Part shown: positions 10,619-21,581 of the stretch, one piece after another | Layout: every line of letters begins with the position of its first letter | Position numbering within the stretch: the first letter of the stretch is position 1 | Origin: Spirochaetales bacterium | GTDB taxonomy: Bacteria > Spirochaetota > Spirochaetia > SZUA-6 > JAFGRV01 | NCBI GenBank assembly: GCA_016930085.1 | Contig: JAFGHO010000045.1 | Location: forward strand, 1 to 51,086 | Direction: 5' to 3' | DNA: 51,086 nucleotides | The notes under the pieces: generated by a model | The model's database searches: none | What the model was told of the DNA's origin: nothing | Seen by the model: only the letters and a program-made list of their open reading frames with translations | Translations under genes and position numbers: made by a program

Positions 10619-13237
10619 CTATTGGAGTACCGATATGCCGTCAAGCCCGAAGTCGGCCAGGTCTTCAATGGGGTTGAACGGGGCGACAATATCGCGGTTG
10701 CGTAATATTATTCTTCCGTTTTCACTCAACAGGTCTCCGAATCCGACATAGCCGAGTTTTGCGTCCCTGAATCCCGAGGCGGTCGAAAACCATATTTCGC
10801 CATTGGAAAGAATATAGACGGCATCGATATCGATAGAGCCTTCAATGGATACGGATAACGGATTGAAATTCCGCAACAGGTCTTTGCCGGTTTTGTATAT
10901 TCGTCCGTCCGTCGTAAGAATATCTCCGGGACCGATATAGACACCGAGTTTTTCTGAGAAAAATCCTTCTTTTATGGAAAAAACAATGATCCTTTTTTCC
11001 GGGGGGATCTCGGCGGCTTCGCTTAAGATGTCCGCTGACCCTTCGTCCGTCACCGGGGACCGGGAAACGGCCAATGCGTCCAGACCCGTGTCCTGAGCGA
11101 CCGGCATCGGTCCGAATGGAGAAATAAGGTCGATATTCCGCCTTACCACCCTTCCGAAGTTGTTTAAAATATCCCCATGGCCGGGATTTTCTTTCGCCAG
11201 GATATCTGTTTTTGAAGAAAAAAGGACATACGGCGTTACCATCGAGCCGTCTTCCGAAGAAAAATGGTTGATCGGTCCGATGACGGCATCGAGTCCGACT
11301 TTCTGTTCGGCAAAGGTCGGATAAAGATTGAACGCCGATATGAGCTCGGAATTCGTCAACAGTATCGTTCCTTTGGAAGAAAGAAGGTCTCCGTCGGAGA
11401 CGTGGTTCCCGAGACTTCCGGAGGTGAAGGGGTAATCCGTGGAAAAGGAAAAACCGGGCATTGGGACGGCGACAAGGTGAACGGCATACTGCGGCGAGAC
11501 GGACCCGATACTGGTACCGTTGTTTTTTACCGTTATATCGATCCACGGGAAATCGATATCTTCCGGAACACCGACCGATCCCGAATCCAGCCTTACCGGA
11601 AGGTTCCCGCCGATATTGATCGACACGGACATCTGCTGCCGTGCCGGGTCGACGGTAGTATTGTCCAGAAGATATTTACCCTTCCCGTTTTTTCCGCTTG
11701 TGTGCTCGTCTCCGTTCTTCGGCATAAACGATAGATTGGTGACGGTGAATGTCCTGTACCCCGAAGCGGAGGAAAGTGTTTGTGTAAGGAGAAAAGAACC
11801 ATCGATGGGAAGCCGGATCGTCGGCCGTTCCATATTGGGATAATCGACGGTTATTGTGCTTCCGTCCACCAGCCTGTACGAAACGCCATTATTGACGACA
11901 TCGGGGGTTGTGGAAAGGACGAATGAAAGATTCAAATGCCGGGGCATAACGGCGGCATTATCCGTAAGTGAATCATTGCTCATATAAATGCCCGGGATAA
12001 AATCATTGACGGGGGAGATGACCCATGACCAGATGACATTCTCGTCCACGGGGCCCGAGCTTATACTTATCCAGTAGCGTTGTCCGGGTACGGGAATGAA
12101 AGGCCGGGGCAGGGAAATGTCGTAAGAAAAAACATGATGATACGACCACCCGGCATCCGCGGTATCGTCCGATTCGGTGGTTTCCTTTACGACGGAACCG
12201 AAGAATTTCTGGTTATACGTTTCCGTTCTGTATTCATAGACCAGTGAGTCGGGACGGGGCGTATTGTCCGATGTATCCGGTATTGAATCATAAATTCTTA
12301 TACGGATGTATTTTGGACAGGGAGGTTTTATGTCGGCATTATTCATATGGGCGATATTCGTTCTCCATCCGGGATAGGTTCCCCAGAAACGTACGTTGCC
12401 CACGTTCTCTTTAACAAAAGAAGAGGCGGGCAGTATAAAGTCGTCCGCCGGTACCGGGGTATTGATTGTGTCCATTGACGGCAAAGCGAAACCCGTCGCC
12501 ATATCCGGGGGCTGGGAGAACCATGCGGCGGGATCTCCCCATCGGTCCATTATGGTGAGGATGTAATCCCTTTCCAGGGCCCGGAAGGGTTTGCTTTGAT
12601 AATCTCCGCCTACCACCCAGCCCGGGACGGGCGAGTACACATCCGGATCGAGGGAGAGCGTGAAAGGCGCAGGATCGTGATCCAGAAACACCCCTTTGGG
12701 CAGATATCTTCCCGGCAACCTCGTTTTTATATGTGCCGTCATGCTCGGCGAATAAATCGGCTGGCCATCCCAGCACCCCATGGGATAGAAAAAGACGATT
12801 TCATTTTCCCTGTATACGAGACCGTGCTTGTAATGTGCGGTAAGGTCGAATTTTTCCGGAACCGGGGCAATCGTCCATTCGAGCTGGGGGATACGGGGCC
12901 ATTCCGGAAGAACCGTTCCGTAGAACATGTCACTCCATGTCCATTTGAGCGGGTTTCCGTCCAGCGTTATCCGTATATCATACGACCGGGGCGGTACAGG
13001 ATCGAGAATCCGCACTTTTTCATATTTCAGGTTTCTCATCGGATATAAACCGTCAACCGATGCCTCGAGGGAATTGTCATTGCCTGGCAGTATGTCGTCT
13101 CTTTCATTAATGGACACGGAAATCCATTCTTCCGGCATGATGAGTGTCGGAAGGGGTATGGGATTCCCGAAGGTCCTCAATAAACAAAAACATAACAACG
13201 CCATAACGATAACTGAATAAAAAACTTTTTTTCTCAT
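10619..13237 (-). CDS. Large secreted protein with four C-terminal repeats, function unknown
   Basis: The start at 13237 is chosen because it follows AAAGGAGACAATCT and opens a signal peptide (MRKKVFYSVIVMALLCFC). The mature protein of about 845 residues has no family I can name. The middle contains Trp- and Pro-rich beta-type sequence, including a stretch (about residues 220-400) typical of extracellular proteins that describe an attribute and its value. The last 270 residues hold four diverged copies of a unit of about 60-75 residues with the pattern GDIL-x-NGRI-x-N-x-DLL-x-FNP-x-GLDA. A sigma-54-like element (13397-13412) and two palindromes lie upstream. Divergent from the caspase operon, it is a good candidate target of the CHASE2 activator encoded there. 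Confidence 0.7.
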   Translation of the reverse strand: MRKKVFYSVIVMALLCFCLLRTFGNPIPLPTLIMPEEWISVSINERDDILPGNDNSLEASVDGLYPMRNLKYEKVRILDPVPPRSYDIRITLDGNPLKWTWSDMFYGTVLPEWPRIPQLEWTIAPVPEKFDLTAHYKHGLVYRENEIVFFYPMGCWDGQPIYSPSMTAHIKTRLPGRYLPKGVFLDHDPAPFTLSLDPDVYSPVPGWVVGGDYQSKPFRALERDYILTIMDRWGDPAAWFSQPPDMATGFALPSMDTINTPVPADDFILPASSFVKENVGNVRFWGTYPGWRTNIAHMNNADIKPPCPKYIRIRIYDSIPDTSDNTPRPDSLVYEYRTETYNQKFFGSVVKETTESDDTADAGWSYHHVFSYDISLPRPFIPVPGQRYWISISSGPVDENVIWSWVISPVNDFIPGIYMSNDSLTDNAAVMPRHLNLSFVLSTTPDVVNNGVSYRLVDGSTITVDYPNMERPTIRLPIDGSFLLTQTLSSASGYRTFTVTNLSFMPKNGDEHTSGKNGKGKYLLDNTTVDPARQQMSVSINIGGNLPVRLDSGSVGVPEDIDFPWIDITVKNNGTSIGSVSPQYAVHLVAVPMPGFSFSTDYPFTSGSLGNHVSDGDLLSSKGTILLTNSELISAFNLYPTFAEQKVGLDAVIGPINHFSSEDGSMVTPYVLFSSKTDILAKENPGHGDILNNFGRVVRRNIDLISPFGPMPVAQDTGLDALAVSRSPVTDEGSADILSEAAEIPPEKRIIVFSIKEGFFSEKLGVYIGPGDILTTDGRIYKTGKDLLRNFNPLSVSIEGSIDIDAVYILSNGEIWFSTASGFRDAKLGYVGFGDLLSENGRIILRNRDIVAPFNPIEDLADFGLDGISVLQ
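10622..11440 (-). repeat. Four tandem diverged repeats in the C-terminus of the secreted protein
   Basis: In protein order the copies are near 11270-11440 (GDLLSSKGTILLTNSELISA), 11064-11240 (GDILNNFGRVVRRNIDLISP), 10815-11000 (GDILTTDGRIYKTGKDLLRN) and 10622-10805 (GDLLSENGRIILRNRDIVAP). Each ends in a GLDA/IDIDA-type motif. They are protein-level repeats with low DNA identity, so they are old. Confidence 0.7.
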
Positions 13238-13274: not shown

Positions 13275-13300
13275 GACGTCTGCGCTTTAACGCAGACGTC
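13275..13300. repeat. Perfect inverted repeat in the 5' leader of the repeat-protein gene
   Basis: GACGTCTGCG (13275-13284), six bases, CGCAGACGTC (13291-13300). On the plus strand it is followed by TTTT and could act as a terminator; on the minus strand it lies about 40 bases before the start codon at 13237 and would form a leader hairpin. Confidence 0.6.
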
Positions 13301-13396
13301 TTTTAACCTTGAATAATACGGTAATTCCGTTCGAAATATATCTTCCATGGCGAATTTGCCTTCCGCCTTTGCCGTATTGTCTCTTGTGTAATTAAA

Positions 13397-13412
13397 AGCA
13401 ATAAGTATACCA
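13397..13412 (-). promoter_or_regulatory. Candidate sigma-54 promoter of the secreted repeat protein
   Basis: On the minus strand TGGTATACTTATTGCT has the GG-N10-GC spacing and an exact TTGCT -12 half; the -24 half TGGTAT differs from TGGCAC at two positions. Transcription would start near 13386, leaving a leader of about 150 bases. Confidence 0.45.
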
Positions 13413-13486
13413 GCCGTTCGGAATAAATATATGTTCAATAAATATAGAGAATTGGATTCAATACGTGATGAATGAAACGGCAATGG

Positions 13487-13512
13487 CATGCATTGCGTTA
13501 TCGCAATGCATG
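13487..13512. promoter_or_regulatory. Palindromic site A, putative upstream activator site
   Basis: CATGCATTGCG-TTAT-CGCAATGCATG, perfect 11-bp arms around four bases. Its central half-sites are identical to site B, 76 bp away. Confidence 0.6.
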
Positions 13513-13563
13513 TATACGGAAAGTGAAAAATAGCGGTAAATATTTATTTTATAAGGAAATGGG

Positions 13564-13587
13564 ATGCATTGCGAAATCGCAATGCAT
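13564..13587. promoter_or_regulatory. Palindromic site B, putative upstream activator site
   Basis: ATGCATTGCG-AAAT-CGCAATGCAT, perfect 10-bp arms around four bases, same arms as site A. Both sites lie between the divergent promoters of the repeat-protein gene and the caspase operon. The rest of 13238-13773 holds no convincing gene. Confidence 0.6.
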
Positions 13588-13685
13588 TGCGGAACCAAAG
13601 GAGATAATCGATCGCGTATTTTTTCTTGCTTTGAACCATAACGCCGTAGCGGAAGAGTTATTCGGGATTGCACATTAGTTTTTTA

Positions 13686-13714
13686 TTGACCCGGATATAC
13701 TACAATGGTATACT
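13686..13714 (+). promoter_or_regulatory. Sigma-70-type promoter of the caspase operon
   Basis: TTGACC (13686-13691), 17 bases, TATACT (13709-13714). Transcription would start near 13721, about 50 bases before the ATG at 13774. Confidence 0.65.
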
Positions 13715-13773: not shown

Positions 13774-15240
13774 ATGAAAAAAATCCTTCTATCGATCATG
13801 TATCTCATGCTTCTGGTTCCTTTTTTATGTTTTTCCATCAATACGAGAAGTATCGGTTTTATTGATGAAGAAAAGGAATCGCAAAATGTTTACGTAGGAA
13901 AACAATACCTTCTGGTTATCGGTATCAGTAAATATCTGAAGTGGTTTCCTCTGGCCAACCCGGTCGATGATACCCGTGAAATAAAGAACATTCTTACGAC
14001 TCATTATTATATCGATGAGGTGAGGGAACTCTATGATGAAAATGCCACAAAGGCGATGATTTTAAAGGTGTTTTATGATTTGCAGACCGTGCTTACCGAG
14101 GATGATTCTCTTCTTGTTCTTTACGCGGGCCACGGCCATTATGATCAAACGACAAAAACCGGTTTCTGGATCCCGTATGATGCCGGTACCGATGAATACG
14201 AACAGGAACACTGGATTCCCAATCAGATCATTCACGGGCTTATTTCCAATATGAAGGCCGCCCATATCTGCCTTATTACCGATTCCTGTTTTTCCGGTGA
14301 TATCCTTAATATTACGCGGGGTAAAATAAAGGAGATAGAGGATGGTTATTTCAAGAAAGCGTACGCCCTGATATCCAGGCAGGTCATTACATCGGGCGCC
14401 CTTGAAGCCGTACCGGACACCTCGTCATTCTGCCGTATGCTCAAAATCGTATTGAGAAAAAACATATCTCCTTATCTCGATCCGATGATGCTTTTTAACG
14501 AGATTCGTTTGGGGGTGACGGAAACGACACCGCTTTTCGGAAGTCTGAAAGGATCGGGACACCAGGAAGGTGCCAGTTTTCTCCTGTTCCTGAAAAAACA
14601 GGAAATAAACAGGGCAGACGGTCTATCACGGAAGAATGATGAAAAAACGGTGGGGGAAGCAAATACCGTCCTTACCGATACGTTTCCCGATGCTTCCTCA
14701 GAAAGAAATATGCGGAAAAGTAAGTATCCTTTTTTATCCGAAAAATTCTTTTTTTCAATAGGTCTCGGATTAGGATTGATGATTCCTCTTGGCGATGTCG
14801 AAGGTGTGATGGATCCGGGAACAAATCCCGATGTGTCGTTCCGGTTCAACCTGAGCATGCCATGGGGTATCTGCGGTTTCGGCATATATGCAGGCGCGGG
14901 GAGTATCAATACAAACGAACGTTTTGCACCATCATATACGATGCTCATTATTCCCGTGGAAATTCAGGTGAGCTACATGACATCTTTTTTCTTTCCTTTA
15001 TATGGTATGTGCCGTGCGGGTTGCGGAATATCGCTCAATTCAATCACATATAATGAGGTGTATGCCGGCCTTGATGATTTTACCACGGGGAAATTTTATC
15101 TGTCGGCGGGACTTGGAGCGGGATATATTTTATTCCCGCGACTCTGGATCGAGGTTAATGCAGACTGTTCGATGATTTTTTTCGACAATACACTTTACAC
15201 CGACGTGAAACCGGGGATAGAACTGGTCCTTACCTTTTGA
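13774..15240 (+). CDS. Caspase-like (C14) protease with C-terminal outer-membrane beta-barrel domain
   Basis: The 488-residue protein begins with a signal peptide (MKKILLSIMYLMLLVPFLCF). Residues 45-275 form a caspase/metacaspase fold: YLLVIGISKY, the YAGHGH motif with catalytic His120, and DSCFSG with nucleophile Cys172. A charged linker of about 50 residues leads to residues 315-488, which show alternating hydrophobic, Gly- and aromatic-rich strands (FFFSIGLGLGLMIPLG to ELVLTF) and end in Phe, as small outer-membrane barrels do. So the protease domain would hang in the periplasm or outside, tethered to the outer membrane. It is the first gene of an operon with a propeller lipoprotein, a DUF4384 protein and a CHASE2 sensor-activator. 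The catalytic residues are seen; the barrel is inferred from pattern. Confidence 0.85.
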   Translation: MKKILLSIMYLMLLVPFLCFSINTRSIGFIDEEKESQNVYVGKQYLLVIGISKYLKWFPLANPVDDTREIKNILTTHYYIDEVRELYDENATKAMILKVFYDLQTVLTEDDSLLVLYAGHGHYDQTTKTGFWIPYDAGTDEYEQEHWIPNQIIHGLISNMKAAHICLITDSCFSGDILNITRGKIKEIEDGYFKKAYALISRQVITSGALEAVPDTSSFCRMLKIVLRKNISPYLDPMMLFNEIRLGVTETTPLFGSLKGSGHQEGASFLLFLKKQEINRADGLSRKNDEKTVGEANTVLTDTFPDASSERNMRKSKYPFLSEKFFFSIGLGLGLMIPLGDVEGVMDPGTNPDVSFRFNLSMPWGICGFGIYAGAGSINTNERFAPSYTMLIIPVEIQVSYMTSFFFPLYGMCRAGCGISLNSITYNEVYAGLDDFTTGKFYLSAGLGAGYILFPRLWIEVNADCSMIFFDNTLYTDVKPGIELVLTF

Positions 15241-15329: not shown

Positions 15330-16754
15330 ATGGGAAATCGTCATTCCCTGTCGACCTATATTGTTTTTTTACTTTGTTTTATACCGGTACTGGTTTTTCT
15401 ACCGCTATCCTGTCATTATTTTGATCCGCTGCATCCATACGGCCATATTGTTTATTGGTCGAAAAGTTACGGCGCTGTTGAGGACGAGCAGATGAACTCG
15501 ATTATCTCTTTATCCGGCGATGATAACGTTATTGCCGGGTATACCGATTCATTCGGAATGGGCGGGGAGGACAGCTGGATAATAGGACTCGACCAAGAAG
15601 GAGACGTTTGCTGGGAAAAGGCATATGGAACGGAAGATAAAAATGAACGGATAAGCCGTATAATCACCACTTCAAGCGATGATCTCGTTGTTGCGGGAAA
15701 CATGTACGACAGGGATATTGAAATCGGCAGTGATATATGGGTGATGAAGTGCGACGGTGAGGGGAATATTCTCTGGGAAAATTGTATCGGCGGCAGTCAG
15801 GGAGACGAGGCAATGTGGATTGACGAAACGGCGGACGGGGGATTTATCCTGGCGGGTAAATCCGAATCTTTTGCCACCGATACGAGCAAAGGCCATGATG
15901 CCCTGCTGGTAAAATTCGGCCCGAATGGCGAAATATTATGGAGGCAGATTTTCGGGGGGGCCGGATATGATGAAGCCTGCGTCGTGCAGGCTGTCGATGA
16001 TGACTGTATCATCTTCGGCGGAAACACCTCCTCCTTCGGGTCCGGCGATTCCGATTTCTGGGTAGTAAAAACCGATAGTCTCGGAAAAGTGATCTGGGAA
16101 AAGCGATACGGGAAAAGCGGTGACGACAGGCTTTGTTCACTGATACATACCAGTGATAACGGATGTATCGTGACGGGTCATATTGATTCCGCCGATTTCT
16201 CTGAAAATGAGAACGAATGGATTTTGCAGATAATCAAAATAAGTTCACAGGGCGGCATTATGTGGCAGAAAGCCTTTGTTTATGAATCTTCCGTTAAGCA
16301 ATGGACGGAATTGACGCATAGTATCGATGAAACGGAAGACGGAAATTTTATTATCGCCGTCACAACTGAATTGGTTTACGGAAAAGGCTTGGATTGCCAT
16401 ATCTTGAAGATCGACCGGAGGGGTAACATACTCTGGCAAAAAGCCTATGGCGGGAGTGAAAATGATTTTATATTGAGTGTCAAGGAGATGCCGGATAACG
16501 GATATCTCCTCGCGGGGAAGACGTATTCTTTTGACGTTCAAAGGGCGGATTCCTGGATTCTGAAAATTCTTCCCAACGGAGAATGCCATCCGCTGGATTA
16601 TATTCCTTCATTTAAAACGGGATCCATTGTCTGCGATGTATCGGACACCGAATCATCAACGGAAAGAATCAATACCCCGTCAATATCGATAATGAGAAAA
16701 ATAACAGTGACGGAAACCAGTTGTACGGTAAAGCAACAGGCCCCTGTCGAATGA
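15330..16754 (+). CDS. Beta-propeller repeat lipoprotein
   Basis: The ATG follows GGAGGAAAAG. The 474-residue protein has an N-terminal signal ending LPLSC (Cys28), then about seven repeats of roughly 50-55 residues with the pattern D-x-W-x-IK-x-D-x-x-GNI-x-WEK-x-YGGS-x-D-(I/V)...DGGFILAG-x-(T/S)-SFG. This is the repeat seen in many bacterial extracellular propeller proteins. No catalytic residues are evident; a binding or scaffold role is likely. It sits in the caspase operon, 89 bases after the protease gene and 14 bases before the DUF4384 gene. The C-terminal 50 residues are Ser/Thr-rich and lie outside the propeller. Confidence 0.8.
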   Translation: MGNRHSLSTYIVFLLCFIPVLVFLPLSCHYFDPLHPYGHIVYWSKSYGAVEDEQMNSIISLSGDDNVIAGYTDSFGMGGEDSWIIGLDQEGDVCWEKAYGTEDKNERISRIITTSSDDLVVAGNMYDRDIEIGSDIWVMKCDGEGNILWENCIGGSQGDEAMWIDETADGGFILAGKSESFATDTSKGHDALLVKFGPNGEILWRQIFGGAGYDEACVVQAVDDDCIIFGGNTSSFGSGDSDFWVVKTDSLGKVIWEKRYGKSGDDRLCSLIHTSDNGCIVTGHIDSADFSENENEWILQIIKISSQGGIMWQKAFVYESSVKQWTELTHSIDETEDGNFIIAVTTELVYGKGLDCHILKIDRRGNILWQKAYGGSENDFILSVKEMPDNGYLLAGKTYSFDVQRADSWILKILPNGECHPLDYIPSFKTGSIVCDVSDTESSTERINTPSISIMRKITVTETSCTVKQQAPVE

Positions 16755-16768
16755 AATGTGAGGTGAAA

Positions 16769-17440
16769 ATGTCCGTTTTAAGAAAAAAGGTTTTCATGGT
16801 TATTATGTTCCTGATTCCGCTTTTTTATCATTATGCGGAAGAACAAGCCGCAAACAGCGTATGCTTTCGCTGGGCTTTTGTGTACAAAGATGAAACAGGG
16901 GAAATACAATCTATCGATCACAATAAATACATTAACAACCTGACATCGGGGAATCGCCTGAAGATCTATCTGGAACCTGTTCGCAATGCCTATATCTACC
17001 TTATTCTATATGATTCGCGGAATGACCTGTTTATCCTTTTCCCGGATATGAAACGTGAATTTTTTGCCGATTATCAGACGGGAAAAGAATACTATGTTCC
17101 GGAAAAAAATATCTGGTTGTATCTTAAAAATGACGGCGGTATGGAAGTATTTCACCTTATTGTTTCCCGCACGCGGTGTGAAGGGCTGGAACAGGCAATC
17201 ACGGATTACCTTGATCTTTTGGAAAAGGAATCCGTTACGGAGAAGATGATGAATATGGCAAAACAGTCCGTTCTTGAAGCGATAAGGGATTTAAAAAAGA
17301 GAAACAGTGTTTTTCAGGGTCCGGATGAACGGCCCCTCAGTATCGCCGGCGATTATCGGGGAGACAAGACGATTCGTCAGTTTATTGACAGGATTGAAGT
17401 TGAGAGTTTTTATGCAAAAACATTCCGGGTGGCACATTAA
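16769..17440 (+). CDS. DUF4384 domain protein, secreted
   Basis: An ATG at 16769 preceded by GAGGTGAAA gives 223 residues and a good signal peptide (MSVLRKKVFMVIMFLIPLF); earlier in-frame ATGs at 16721 and 16751 overlap or abut the previous gene and lack a ribosome site. The body matches DUF4384: FRWAFVYKDETGEI, LTSGNRLKIYLEPVRNAYIYLILYDS, LFILFPD, and a FHLIVS strand. DUF4384 is often fused to caspase domains in other bacteria; here it is a separate gene in the same operon, which supports a functional link. The last 60 residues are charged helices. It overlaps the next gene by 29 bases, indicating translational coupling. Confidence 0.8.
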   Translation: MSVLRKKVFMVIMFLIPLFYHYAEEQAANSVCFRWAFVYKDETGEIQSIDHNKYINNLTSGNRLKIYLEPVRNAYIYLILYDSRNDLFILFPDMKREFFADYQTGKEYYVPEKNIWLYLKNDGGMEVFHLIVSRTRCEGLEQAITDYLDLLEKESVTEKMMNMAKQSVLEAIRDLKKRNSVFQGPDERPLSIAGDYRGDKTIRQFIDRIEVESFYAKTFRVAH

Positions 17441-20400
17441 CAGGAAAGTGCTGTTCCTCGGGGCGGTTATTACATTTATTTCGTTTTTACTCGCTTATCT
17501 GTTTGGTTTTATTATAGCGCCTTCATTCTTTGAATCCTGGCAGAACAAAATATCGGATGGTTTTTTCAAACTCAGGTATACACTTAACGGAAAGGGAGAT
17601 ATTTCTCCGTATATTATTCATGCCGTCCTCGATGACACGAGTTATCACTCCTTTGAAACGGCCGGTGATGATAATAATCTGTATTACAGAATTCTCTCGA
17701 CGATCGCCAATGCCGGTGTAAAGGCAATCGCATGCGATATTTTTTTCAGTAAACGGGGCAGGTACCTTGAAGATAACCGTCAATTCAAGCGGGCCGCCGG
17801 GCAGGCAAAAATTTATGTTCCCGTCATCCTTTATCCCGAAAATTATGTGATCGGATTTGACCGGGCCGGTATCAATAACGATAATGAAGCACTTGTCGAG
17901 AAAAATCTCTGGTATCCCAAAGTACTGGGGAAAGGGAATCCGCCTGCCGCCCGGATGATCATAACGCCCATTCCCGATGTTGCGGAAAACGCTTGCGGTC
18001 TGGGACATATTACATGCGATCCGGATGTCGATGGGATCAACCGCCGGTTTCCCCTGTTGTATAAATATAAAGACGGATATTTTCCCGCCCTGGTGCTGCG
18101 TATGCTCGCCGATGTTCTGGGTGTCGCTTCCCCGGATATCGAAGTCTTCTTCGGCAGATATATCCGGCTCCCCGATGCACGGTGTGGTGAGTTCGTAAGA
18201 AAAGACATAACGATTCCCATTGATGCAAAGGGCCGTATAATCGTCAACTTTGCCGGATCCTGGGATGATTCCTTTATTCACTTTCCCGTTCATAATCTTC
18301 TAAAAACCGAAATGGATACCGGTCTCAAATTGAGACTTTACGATGATTTTGAAGGTTCGATTGTTTTGTTTTCCGATACTTCCACGAGAAATAAAGATTA
18401 TGGCCCCGGGATTTTCGATCGCGTTTATCCGCTGAGCGGTCTGCATCTCAATATTGCAAATACGATACTCACGGGGGAATTCATTCATAAACCCGGAATC
18501 GGCATTCATGTCATCATCTCTCTTGTTGTTGCACTGATCTTCTGGGTGCTTTCATTTACGCTTCGTCCGGCAGGGTATCTTGTTTCTTCCGTTTGCCTGA
18601 TTTTTCTTTATATGATTTTTGCGGCCTGGGTTTTTATCAGTGTTCGGGTGCTTTTGACGATGACCCACGATCTTGCGGGACTCTGCGTCGCGTTACTTCT
18701 CATATGTTTTTATCGTTTTGTTATCGAGGACCGGGAAAAAAGAATACTCATCGACAAAGCACTCACCGCGAAAAAGCTCAAAAATATAAATACGGAGCTC
18801 GAGGCCGCGAATAAAACACTCAAGCAGGTTGAGCGATACAGGGAGCACTTTGTACAGAATATTACGCATGAGTTCAGAACACCGCTGACGCTTATTCTCA
18901 GTCCCCTTGATACGCTTCTTGAAAATAATGAGATCAAGAACAAACCGGAAATACTTAAAACGCTCAGTATCATAAAACGGAACTCGCAAAAGCTGTTGTA
19001 TTTAATAGAACAGCTTCTCGATTTGTCAAAAATAAAATCGGGGAAAATGGATCTTGTCATTAATCGATGTAATATTGTCGATCTTCTCTTTTCTCTTGTC
19101 GAGTATTTTCTACCGCTTGCGAAGAACAGGGGAATACGTCTGGAATTCAAAAAGAACGTCGACACTTTTTTTGTTCCCGTCGACAAGGAAAAATTGGAAA
19201 AAGTAATTTCCAATCTTTTATCCAATGCACTCAAATTCTCAAAAAAGGGCGACAAAATAATCGTGGAATGCATTCCTCCGGTATTCCTCGAAAGTCTAAA
19301 AATTGAATGGCCTTTTGAAAAACCGCAGGAGGTGTACGGCATAAGGGTAAGGGACACGGGAATCGGCATACCGGAAAAAGATCTGTCCGTTATTTTTGAA
19401 CGGTATAAACAGGGGGAACAACGCGACCAAAACGCGAATTCCGGAAGCTGGAGTTTCGGAAGCGGGATCGGTCTTGCACTGGTGAGAGAATATATTGCCA
19501 TGCATCACGGTATCGTTACGGTGGAAAGCAGACCCGGGAAGGGCACGGTCTTTGATATCTATCTTCCCGCAACGGATACGGCTTTTGAAAATGATCCCCG
19601 GTGTTCGGTAGAGACAGGATCGGAATCGGCCGGTTTTACCGGCCGATTCAAATCACATGCTGACCTTCTTTTTTCGGATCTAATGCAGCGGTCCGAAACA
19701 TCTTCCGCTGAAATAAACGGCACATCGGGGAAACGGCACGGTACCATTCTTGTTATCGATAATGACGGCCAGATGCGTGATTACCTCCGGCTGGTTCTAT
19801 CTCGACGATACAGCGTGTATGAGGCGACGGATGGGGAAGAGGGGTTCAGAATTGCCTGTGACAGTAAACCGGACCTTGTCATTGTCGATCTTCTCATGCC
19901 CCGGACGGACGGCATCGCTTTATTAAAGAAATTCCGTTCGAACCCTAAAACGGAGGGTATTCCCGTTCTTCTCGTCACGGCCAGAACAACCGAGGATATG
20001 ACAAATACCGATGAAACCGTACTGCCGCAAGACTACCTCGTCAAACCGTTCGGTCCGCTCGAGCTGGAGACACGGGTGTCGAACCTTCTTGAAGCGGGCC
20101 TGTTCAATAAACTGCACATACAACCGCATGATGACAAAATGCGGGAAAGCCTGCCGGTCACGGACACCGGTATCGTATTTCCCGGCGATCCCGTTCTGTT
20201 TGTCGACGATGAAAAAGAGATGCTCGATGCGGAAAAGACCGCGTGCGCACAATACGGTATAACAAACAGTATCCTGTGCGACGACGGCCGCCGGGTCATG
20301 TCCCTGCTTGCAAAGAATTCCGTTTCCTGTGTCGTTATCGATCTCGCCATGCCCCATGTTTCAGGGAGGGACCTGCTCGAGAAAATAAAGCTGCATTATC

Positions 20401-21581
20401 CGGAGATTCCCGTTATTGTCGTAACGGGAATCTCCGCGATCGACTCCGCGGTTGACTGTATGCGGAACGGCGCTTTCGATTACCTGGTAAAGCCCGTCGA
20501 AAGAGAACGGCTTGCAACGGTCATCCGTCACTGTATCGAACGGCGAATCCTGACCGAAGAAAACAACAGGCTTCGAAACAGTCTTTCGGGATACGGTCTC
20601 ATGTATCCCGATGCTTTTTCCAAGATAATCACCCGGAATGATTCAATGTTGACTATTTTTAAAGTGATTGAATCGTTTGCAGACAGTAATCAACCTGTTT
20701 TGATTTGCGGGGAGAGTGGTGTGGGGAAAGAGCTTATTGCCGAGGCAATTCACCTTTCGAGTAAACGGACGGGGAAATTCATTGCCGAGAACATCGCGGG
20801 ACTGGATTCGACGATTTTTTCAGATACGCTTTTTGGACATGTAAAGGGAGCATATACCGGAGCCGTTACACAACGCAGGGGCCTCGTCGAAGAAGCTGCC
20901 GGCGGCACGCTATTTCTCGATGAAATCGGAGAACTCGATACGGAATCTCAGGTTAAATTGCTTCGTTTCCTTGAGTACAGGGAGTACCGGCATATCGGAA
21001 GCGATCAAACAAAACATTCCGATGCCCGTATTATTGCCGCGACCAATGTCAGTCTTGATGAAAAAATTGAAGAATGCCGGTTCCGGAAAGATCTCTATTA
21101 CCGTTTTTCGCAAAAAATAACTATACCGCCGTTAAGAGAGAGGCTCGATGATGTACCTGTGCTGCTTGATTTTTTTCTGGAAAAATCGGCAAACGCGTAC
21201 CATAAAGCAAAGCCGAAAATCGATCCGGAATTAATAAGTATCGTATCAAGTTATCATTATCCGGGCAATGTCAGGGAATTCGCCGCTATGATCGACCGGG
21301 CCGTGAATCTTCATTCGGGAGGAGGTGCGCTGGGAACCGCCTTCTTTCGCGATTATATCCGGCAGCACGGCAATAAACCGCTCATAAATATAGAAAAAAC
21401 AACGCGCCCTTCGAGTTTAATTACGTATTCAGGGAATTTCCCGACCATTGACGAGGTCGAATACTTTTTTATCCAGCAGGCAATGAAAAAAGCAAATGGA
21501 AACCAGCGTATCGCCTCAAAATTACTGGGTCTTTCAACGTCCGCATTGAATAGAAGACTTAAAAAAGGAAAGATCATGTAA
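17412..21581 (+). CDS. CHASE2 sensor histidine kinase fused to two receivers, sigma-54 AAA+ domain and Fis-type HTH
   Basis: From the ATG at 17412 the protein has 1389 residues. Order: a TM helix (about 12-32); a periplasmic CHASE2 domain (about 40-355); three TM helices (about 360-445); a short coiled coil; HisKA with ITHEFRTPL and phospho-acceptor His486; HATPase with N-box [13 protein letters not shown]1 with Asp826; REC2 with Asp977; AAA+ with Walker A GESGVGKE (about 1100-1107) and the sigma-54-contact loop GAYTGA (1146-1151); and a C-terminal HTH_8 motif ([14 protein letters not shown]). So sensor, phosphorelay and NtrC-type activator are in one chain held in the inner membrane. The start is a choice: the frame opens at 17307, but that would overlap the previous gene by 134 bases. 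REC2 next to AAA+ matches NtrC order. Confidence 0.9.

Follow-up and report, generated by a model that had tools for sequence, protein, structure and literature searches.

The window analyzed here, 51,086 nucleotides of a Spirochaetales genome, carries two palindromes with the same arms between a leftward gene encoding an exported DUF7901 protein and a divergent operon encoding a caspase-like protein and a membrane-bound regulator. What would these palindromes control, and which protein would act on them? We think it highly probable that they are enhancers of a sigma-54 promoter (13412-13397), the activator most likely being the regulator encoded by the adjacent operon (17412-21581), because the sites, their spacing, and the promoter element recur in three genera and the HTH of the regulator covaries with the sites. 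The layout is known from three genomes, namely, that of the window and those of G004 and G001, which represent two further genera of its family. Metagenome assemblies of Spirochaetales, several of them from one project, are the nearest named relatives.

Palindrome pair and sigma-54 element

The leftward unit comprises the following features:

10619-13237, minus strand: target gene, encoding an exported protein of 872 aa with DUF7901; start codon chosen from the G004 ortholog
13275-13300, no strand: hairpin with 10-bp arms, GACGTCTGCG-N6-CGCAGACGTC, in the putative 5' leader of the DUF7901 gene
13412-13397, minus strand: sigma-54 (-24/-12) element TGGTATACTTATTGCT, TGGTAT-N5-TTGCT, aligned with TGGCACACCTTTTGCT (G004) and TGGCATGTCTTTTGCA (G001)
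13488-13511, no strand: proximal palindrome ATGCATTGCG-TTAT-CGCAATGCAT, exact match
13564-13587, no strand: distal palindrome ATGCATTGCG-AAAT-CGCAATGCAT, exact match
13582-13592, minus strand: extra half-site CCGCAATGCAT, overlapping the distal palindrome and kept in three genera

The original prediction of twin palindromes with identical arms, 76 bp apart from center to center, held at both positions without a mismatch. Each palindrome spans 24 bp, with 20 positions defined. Counted from the GG of the sigma-54 element, the proximal center lies 89 bp and the distal center 165 bp upstream. With the C of the element set as -12, transcription would start at 13386, which places the centers at about -114 and -190, in agreement with the 115 and 190 bp proposed earlier. 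The distal site consists of three half-sites, since CCGCAATGCAT overlaps its palindrome, a third half-site that had been overlooked at 13582-13592. Matches to this extra half-site occur at -183, -182, and -183 in the three genera, about 18 bp above the distal center. The 76 to 79 bp between centers do not correspond to an integral number of helical turns, a point against the proposal.

The genome was examined by pattern search and by family search. With up to three mismatches allowed, no palindrome appeared in 100 dinucleotide shuffles of the window, and the 5.36-Mb genome contained no copy beyond the two of the window. When just the inner core was searched genome-wide, allowing two mismatches, 7 extra matches appeared versus 6 for a reversed control. 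The palindrome is therefore not a dispersed repeat, which settles a point on which the original prediction could have failed, and, since the looser core yields extra matches at a near-chance level, we do not claim a wider regulon. Perfect inverted repeats can be terminators or repeats, and the pair could be read as a repeat element, a terminator, or another structure unrelated to promoters, with TGGTAT-N5-TTGCT arising by chance. However, the palindromes are not dispersed and, unlike terminators, are not followed by T runs.

The minus-strand element was located at 13412-13397 as predicted. It has the invariant GG and GC at the correct spacing, and its own -24 box reads TGGTAT; the elements of the relatives are stronger. 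Its pattern with one mismatch matched four times in the window versus 3.6 expected from shuffles. Taken alone, the window element is a weak claim, within chance, which counts in favor of the chance reading. TGGTATACT inside this element is also readable as a sigma-70 extended -10, a reading that is impossible for the elements of G004 and G001. At the genome scale, a stricter sigma-54 pattern gave 32 matches versus 12 for the reversed control, the rpoN gene on which the whole proposal depends was found (PF04552, E = 8.3e-58), and 18 strong sigma-54 activators are encoded. Given this enrichment, rpoN, and the 18 activators, the genome very likely uses sigma-54.

Of 395 genomes from the class, only three besides that of the window, all from its family, have an ortholog of the DUF7901 gene; identity to the window gene is 67% in G004 and 65% in G002. 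A structure prediction from an alignment of only three sequences was too poor for use (mean pLDDT of 38). The hairpin at 13275-13300 had no match in Rfam. A plus-strand TTTT follows it, and no plus-strand gene end was seen at this TTTT.

Conservation of the layout and gene order

The palindrome pattern was searched in 60 relatives, which revealed one further exact palindrome. It lies in G004, upstream of the DUF7901 ortholog, with the full-consensus sigma-54 element TGGCACACCTTTTGCT in between. The G004 sites are at -164 (20/20 positions) and -88 (14/20) from the GG. In G001, a DUF7901-like gene is preceded by TGGCATGTCTTTTGCA, with sites at -165 and -86 (14/20 each). The distances from the GG are thus -89/-165 in the window, -88/-164 in G004, and -86/-165 in G001, constant within 3 bp in three genera while the intervening sequence has diverged. 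In the alignment of the three upstream regions, the best-kept blocks are the sites and the -24/-12 bases. The comparison also puts the promoter of the 13237 gene at the same place as originally proposed, and the expected conservation was borne out, since sites, spacing, and sigma-54 element recur before the orthologous gene in two other genera.

Across 1.5 Mb drawn from this locus and other caspase loci, a 14/20 match has a background frequency of 2.5e-5 per base. When the upstream region of each relative was simulated 20,000 times with a Markov model, both predicted windows (7 positions each) were never filled together; multiplication of the single-window rates gives an estimate near 6e-7 for G001 and near 9e-8 for G004. 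These fixed-position tests on orthologs replaced a generic scoring of sigma-54-like elements for similar dyad pairs, which was weak at most paralogous loci and even for G004. The constant position relative to the sigma-54 elements argues against a non-promoter structure combined with a chance element, and we consider that explanation extremely improbable.

Additional genes and elements were seen in these regions. In G004, the sigma-54 promoter is separated from the DUF7901 gene by a gene for a 233-aa exported protein (L110 2801-3502); a similar exported-protein gene precedes DUF7901 in G002, whereas the window has none. At L110 140 (minus strand) of G004, the sigma-54-like sequence TGGTATACTTCTTGCA points off the contig, with the long perfect palindrome GCAAAATGCATAATTTATGCATTTTGC about 96 bp upstream.

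To the right of the sites, the window carries the divergent operon:

13686-13714, plus strand: sigma-70-like promoter TTGACC-17-TATACT, heading the caspase/regulator operon
13774-15240, plus strand: caspase-like protein with a signal peptide and invariant GHG / D-[SA]-C-F motifs
15330-16754, plus strand: lipoprotein-like beta-propeller protein, weakly matching the Leptospira LipL53 SBBP family
16769-17440, plus strand: DUF4384 protein
17412-21581, plus strand: proposed regulator, last gene of the operon; scanned from 17385, first ATG at 17412

The C-terminal part of the caspase-like protein weakly matches an outer-membrane beta-barrel family (TP0733), and no solved structure was similar to the protein by sequence. 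The signal peptide and this weak beta-barrel likeness suggest that the caspase domain may be exported and anchored in the outer membrane. Sigma-54-type elements with nearby dyads of other sequences were also observed at several paralogous loci, upstream of the caspase gene itself, at L062 8397 (minus), L069 10549 (minus), L079 772 (plus), and L115 9079 (minus). The caspase-gene dyads of L062, L069, L079, L113, and L115 are suggestive and were not counted, there being no ortholog for comparison.

The sigma-70-type promoter predicted for the divergent operon was found at 13686-13714. The palindromes were also thought to serve it, and they might indeed be operators for a repressor or activator of both divergent promoters, for example, in autoregulation: in the window, the DUF7901 gene and the operon share the intergenic region that contains them, and the -35 box at 13686 is roughly 110 and 186 bp downstream of the two sites. 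The comparison does not support this part of the prediction. G004 and G001 both have the DUF7901 unit and the caspase operon arranged one after the other on a single strand. The promoter before the caspase gene is kept (TTGACA-17-TATACT in G004, TTGACA-17-TACAAT in G001) and has no sites beside it; these are about 4 kb (G004) and 1.6 kb (G001) away and have retained their distance to the sigma-54 element. Given these differences in gene order, the sites travel with the sigma-54 promoter and not with the caspase promoter. Since the latter stands without sites in both relatives, the placement of the sites near the sigma-70-like promoter is probably an accident of gene order in the window genome, and control of both promoters appears very improbable.

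G002 shares its genus with G004. Its DUF7901 gene is preceded by neither a sigma-54 element nor the sites, and a search of its genome at three mismatches revealed no palindrome. G002 also has no close ortholog of the regulator: none exceeded 42% identity over the sensor and kinase parts, and the best full-length-type matches had 41 to 42% identity, one of them without CHASE2-caspase neighbors. G002 can serve as a natural negative control.

The proposed regulator and its HTH signature

The regulator has the domain order CHASE2, HisKA, HATPase, REC, REC, sigma-54 AAA+, and Fis-type HTH, thereby carrying a membrane sensor, a kinase with a phosphoacceptor His, two receivers, and a DNA-binding output in one chain. 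Hydrophobic segments flank CHASE2, the H-box reads ITHEFRTP, and the AAA+ domain (PF00158, E = 7e-56) has the Walker A motif GESGVGKE and a GAYTGA loop. The C terminus matches HTH_8. Orthologs are found in the same gene cluster in G004 (66% identity, apparently split over two contigs) and G001.

This regulator had been presented as the only NtrC-type activator in view, which is correct for the window as examined and does not extend to the genome, with its 18 strong activators. A regulator need not adjoin its target, and the palindromes could be sigma-54 enhancers bound in trans by another of these 18 enhancer-binding proteins. Three lines of evidence stand against such a trans-acting protein. 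First, the combination NQR...ALNRR (NQR in the HTH and ALNRR in the recognition helix) was found only in the three site-bearing loci, among 67 activators in a survey that was not exhaustive for G002 and G003; the ALNRR signature goes with the sites, and none of the other surveyed activators has it. Second, G004 and G001 carry the orthologous regulator within the same gene cluster, whereas G002, which lacks the sites, lacks this regulator as well. Third, a paralogous pair of loci, orthologous to each other (G000 C107 and G004 C463), repeats the pattern of a regulator beside sites with another motif. The helices of this pair read ...LSKKLKK and its sites are of the TTTCC-N4-GGAAA type, at -99/-186.5 and -98/-185.5 from their own sigma-54 elements; the gene downstream of these elements differs between the two. 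Control by another activator is therefore judged improbable. The link originally proposed between the adjacent regulator and the sites gained support from the covariation of its DNA-binding helix with the sites, and the correspondence between helix and motif is the strongest evidence so far that the adjacent regulator would bind them.

The G001 regulator retains its sites and has lost the first receiver, and ITKSLDIP replaces the H-box. No kinase domains were found by Pfam in this protein or in the C107 paralog. CHASE2 sigma-54 activators without recognizable kinase domains are encoded at L070 630-4142 (G001) and L064 3796-7464, the G001 protein having a degenerate kinase that lacks the phosphoacceptor histidine. 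A phosphorelay is therefore neither general nor essential to the arrangement, and direct signaling across the membrane or phosphorylation in trans has to be considered.

Proposed mechanism and relation to known systems

In the model that we favor, binding, direction of control, signal, phosphorelay, and promoter use are all inferred from sequence. The periplasmic CHASE2 domain would sense a signal, which the kinase and receiver domains would relay within the regulator. The AAA+ domain would then assemble on the paired sites, DNA looping would bring the membrane-tethered activator to the sigma-54 polymerase, and ATP hydrolysis by the activator would open the promoter at 13412-13397, driving the exported DUF7901 gene leftwards. 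Transcription of the sensor/caspase operon from a sigma-70-like promoter of its own would allow the sensor to be made without any signal, whereas the DUF7901 target would be made only in response to one.

Sigma-54 enhancers are dyad sites located about 100 to 150 bp upstream of a -24/-12 promoter (PMC7057263). In the sigma-54 regulons of Clostridiales, 65% of the activators act on just one target operon, many targets are preceded by more than one site, usually 100 to 250 bp upstream, and the similarity of sites follows that of the HTH (PMC6615313). The layout of the window fits the sigma-54 enhancers described in both studies (PMC7057263, PMC6615313). As in NtrC/NifA-type activator systems (PMC7057263), there are dyads upstream of a -24/-12 element, a GAFTGA-type AAA+ domain, and a Fis-type HTH. 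Unlike in these systems, the motif is ATGCATTGCG-N4-CGCAATGCAT instead of TGT-N10-12-ACA, the sites are 76 bp apart, the distal one has three half-sites, and the activator is membrane tethered. Whereas the Clostridiales activators are mainly ligand binding (PMC6615313), the spirochete ones carry CHASE2, kinase, and receivers.

Hybrids joining a membrane sensor and DNA binding in one protein are known (PMC3404733, PMC10269533). The window regulator resembles these hybrid two-component and transmembrane regulators in having sensor, kinase, receiver, and DNA-binding parts in one membrane protein, features that are not common to all its orthologs, as G001 lacks the H-box histidine and the first receiver. 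It differs in its output, a sigma-54 AAA+ activator. None of the one-protein hybrids covered by the available parts of these two sources is described with such an output, and neither "sigma" nor "enhancer" occurs in the main text of the survey of transmembrane regulators (PMC10269533). That survey includes Rsp of Neisseria gonorrhoeae, a PilS/PilR chimera described as repressing pilA (PMC10269533). Both proteins fuse a membrane sensor to the DNA-binding domain of a sigma-54 regulator, but in that of the window, a kinase, a pair of receivers, and an AAA+ domain bearing the sigma-54 contact loop are present. A search of the open-access literature for CHASE2, sigma54, and histidine kinase together found nothing, which is weak evidence of novelty.

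Rrp2 of Borrelia burgdorferi is a separate response regulator and not a membrane fusion. It is described as a putative sigma-54 activator in a spirochete (PMC4014564), and the window regulator is like it in this respect.

It is conceivable, if rather doubtful, that the family uses paralogous membrane-tethered sigma-54 activators, each with a private promoter and palindrome pair beside a caspase-like operon, and that some of them (such as G001) are kinase dead and switched by direct transmembrane signaling or through cleavage by the adjacent exported caspase-like protein rather than by phosphorylation on the same chain. These results supply a predicted target and binding motif for an uncharacterized membrane-bound sigma-54 activator and tie such an activator to caspase-like operons in spirochetes. 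A protein fixed in the membrane would have to reach its enhancers and loop the DNA to the polymerase, and this tethering, together with a natural variant lacking the kinase, makes the system suitable for probing how the membrane may control sigma-54 activators.
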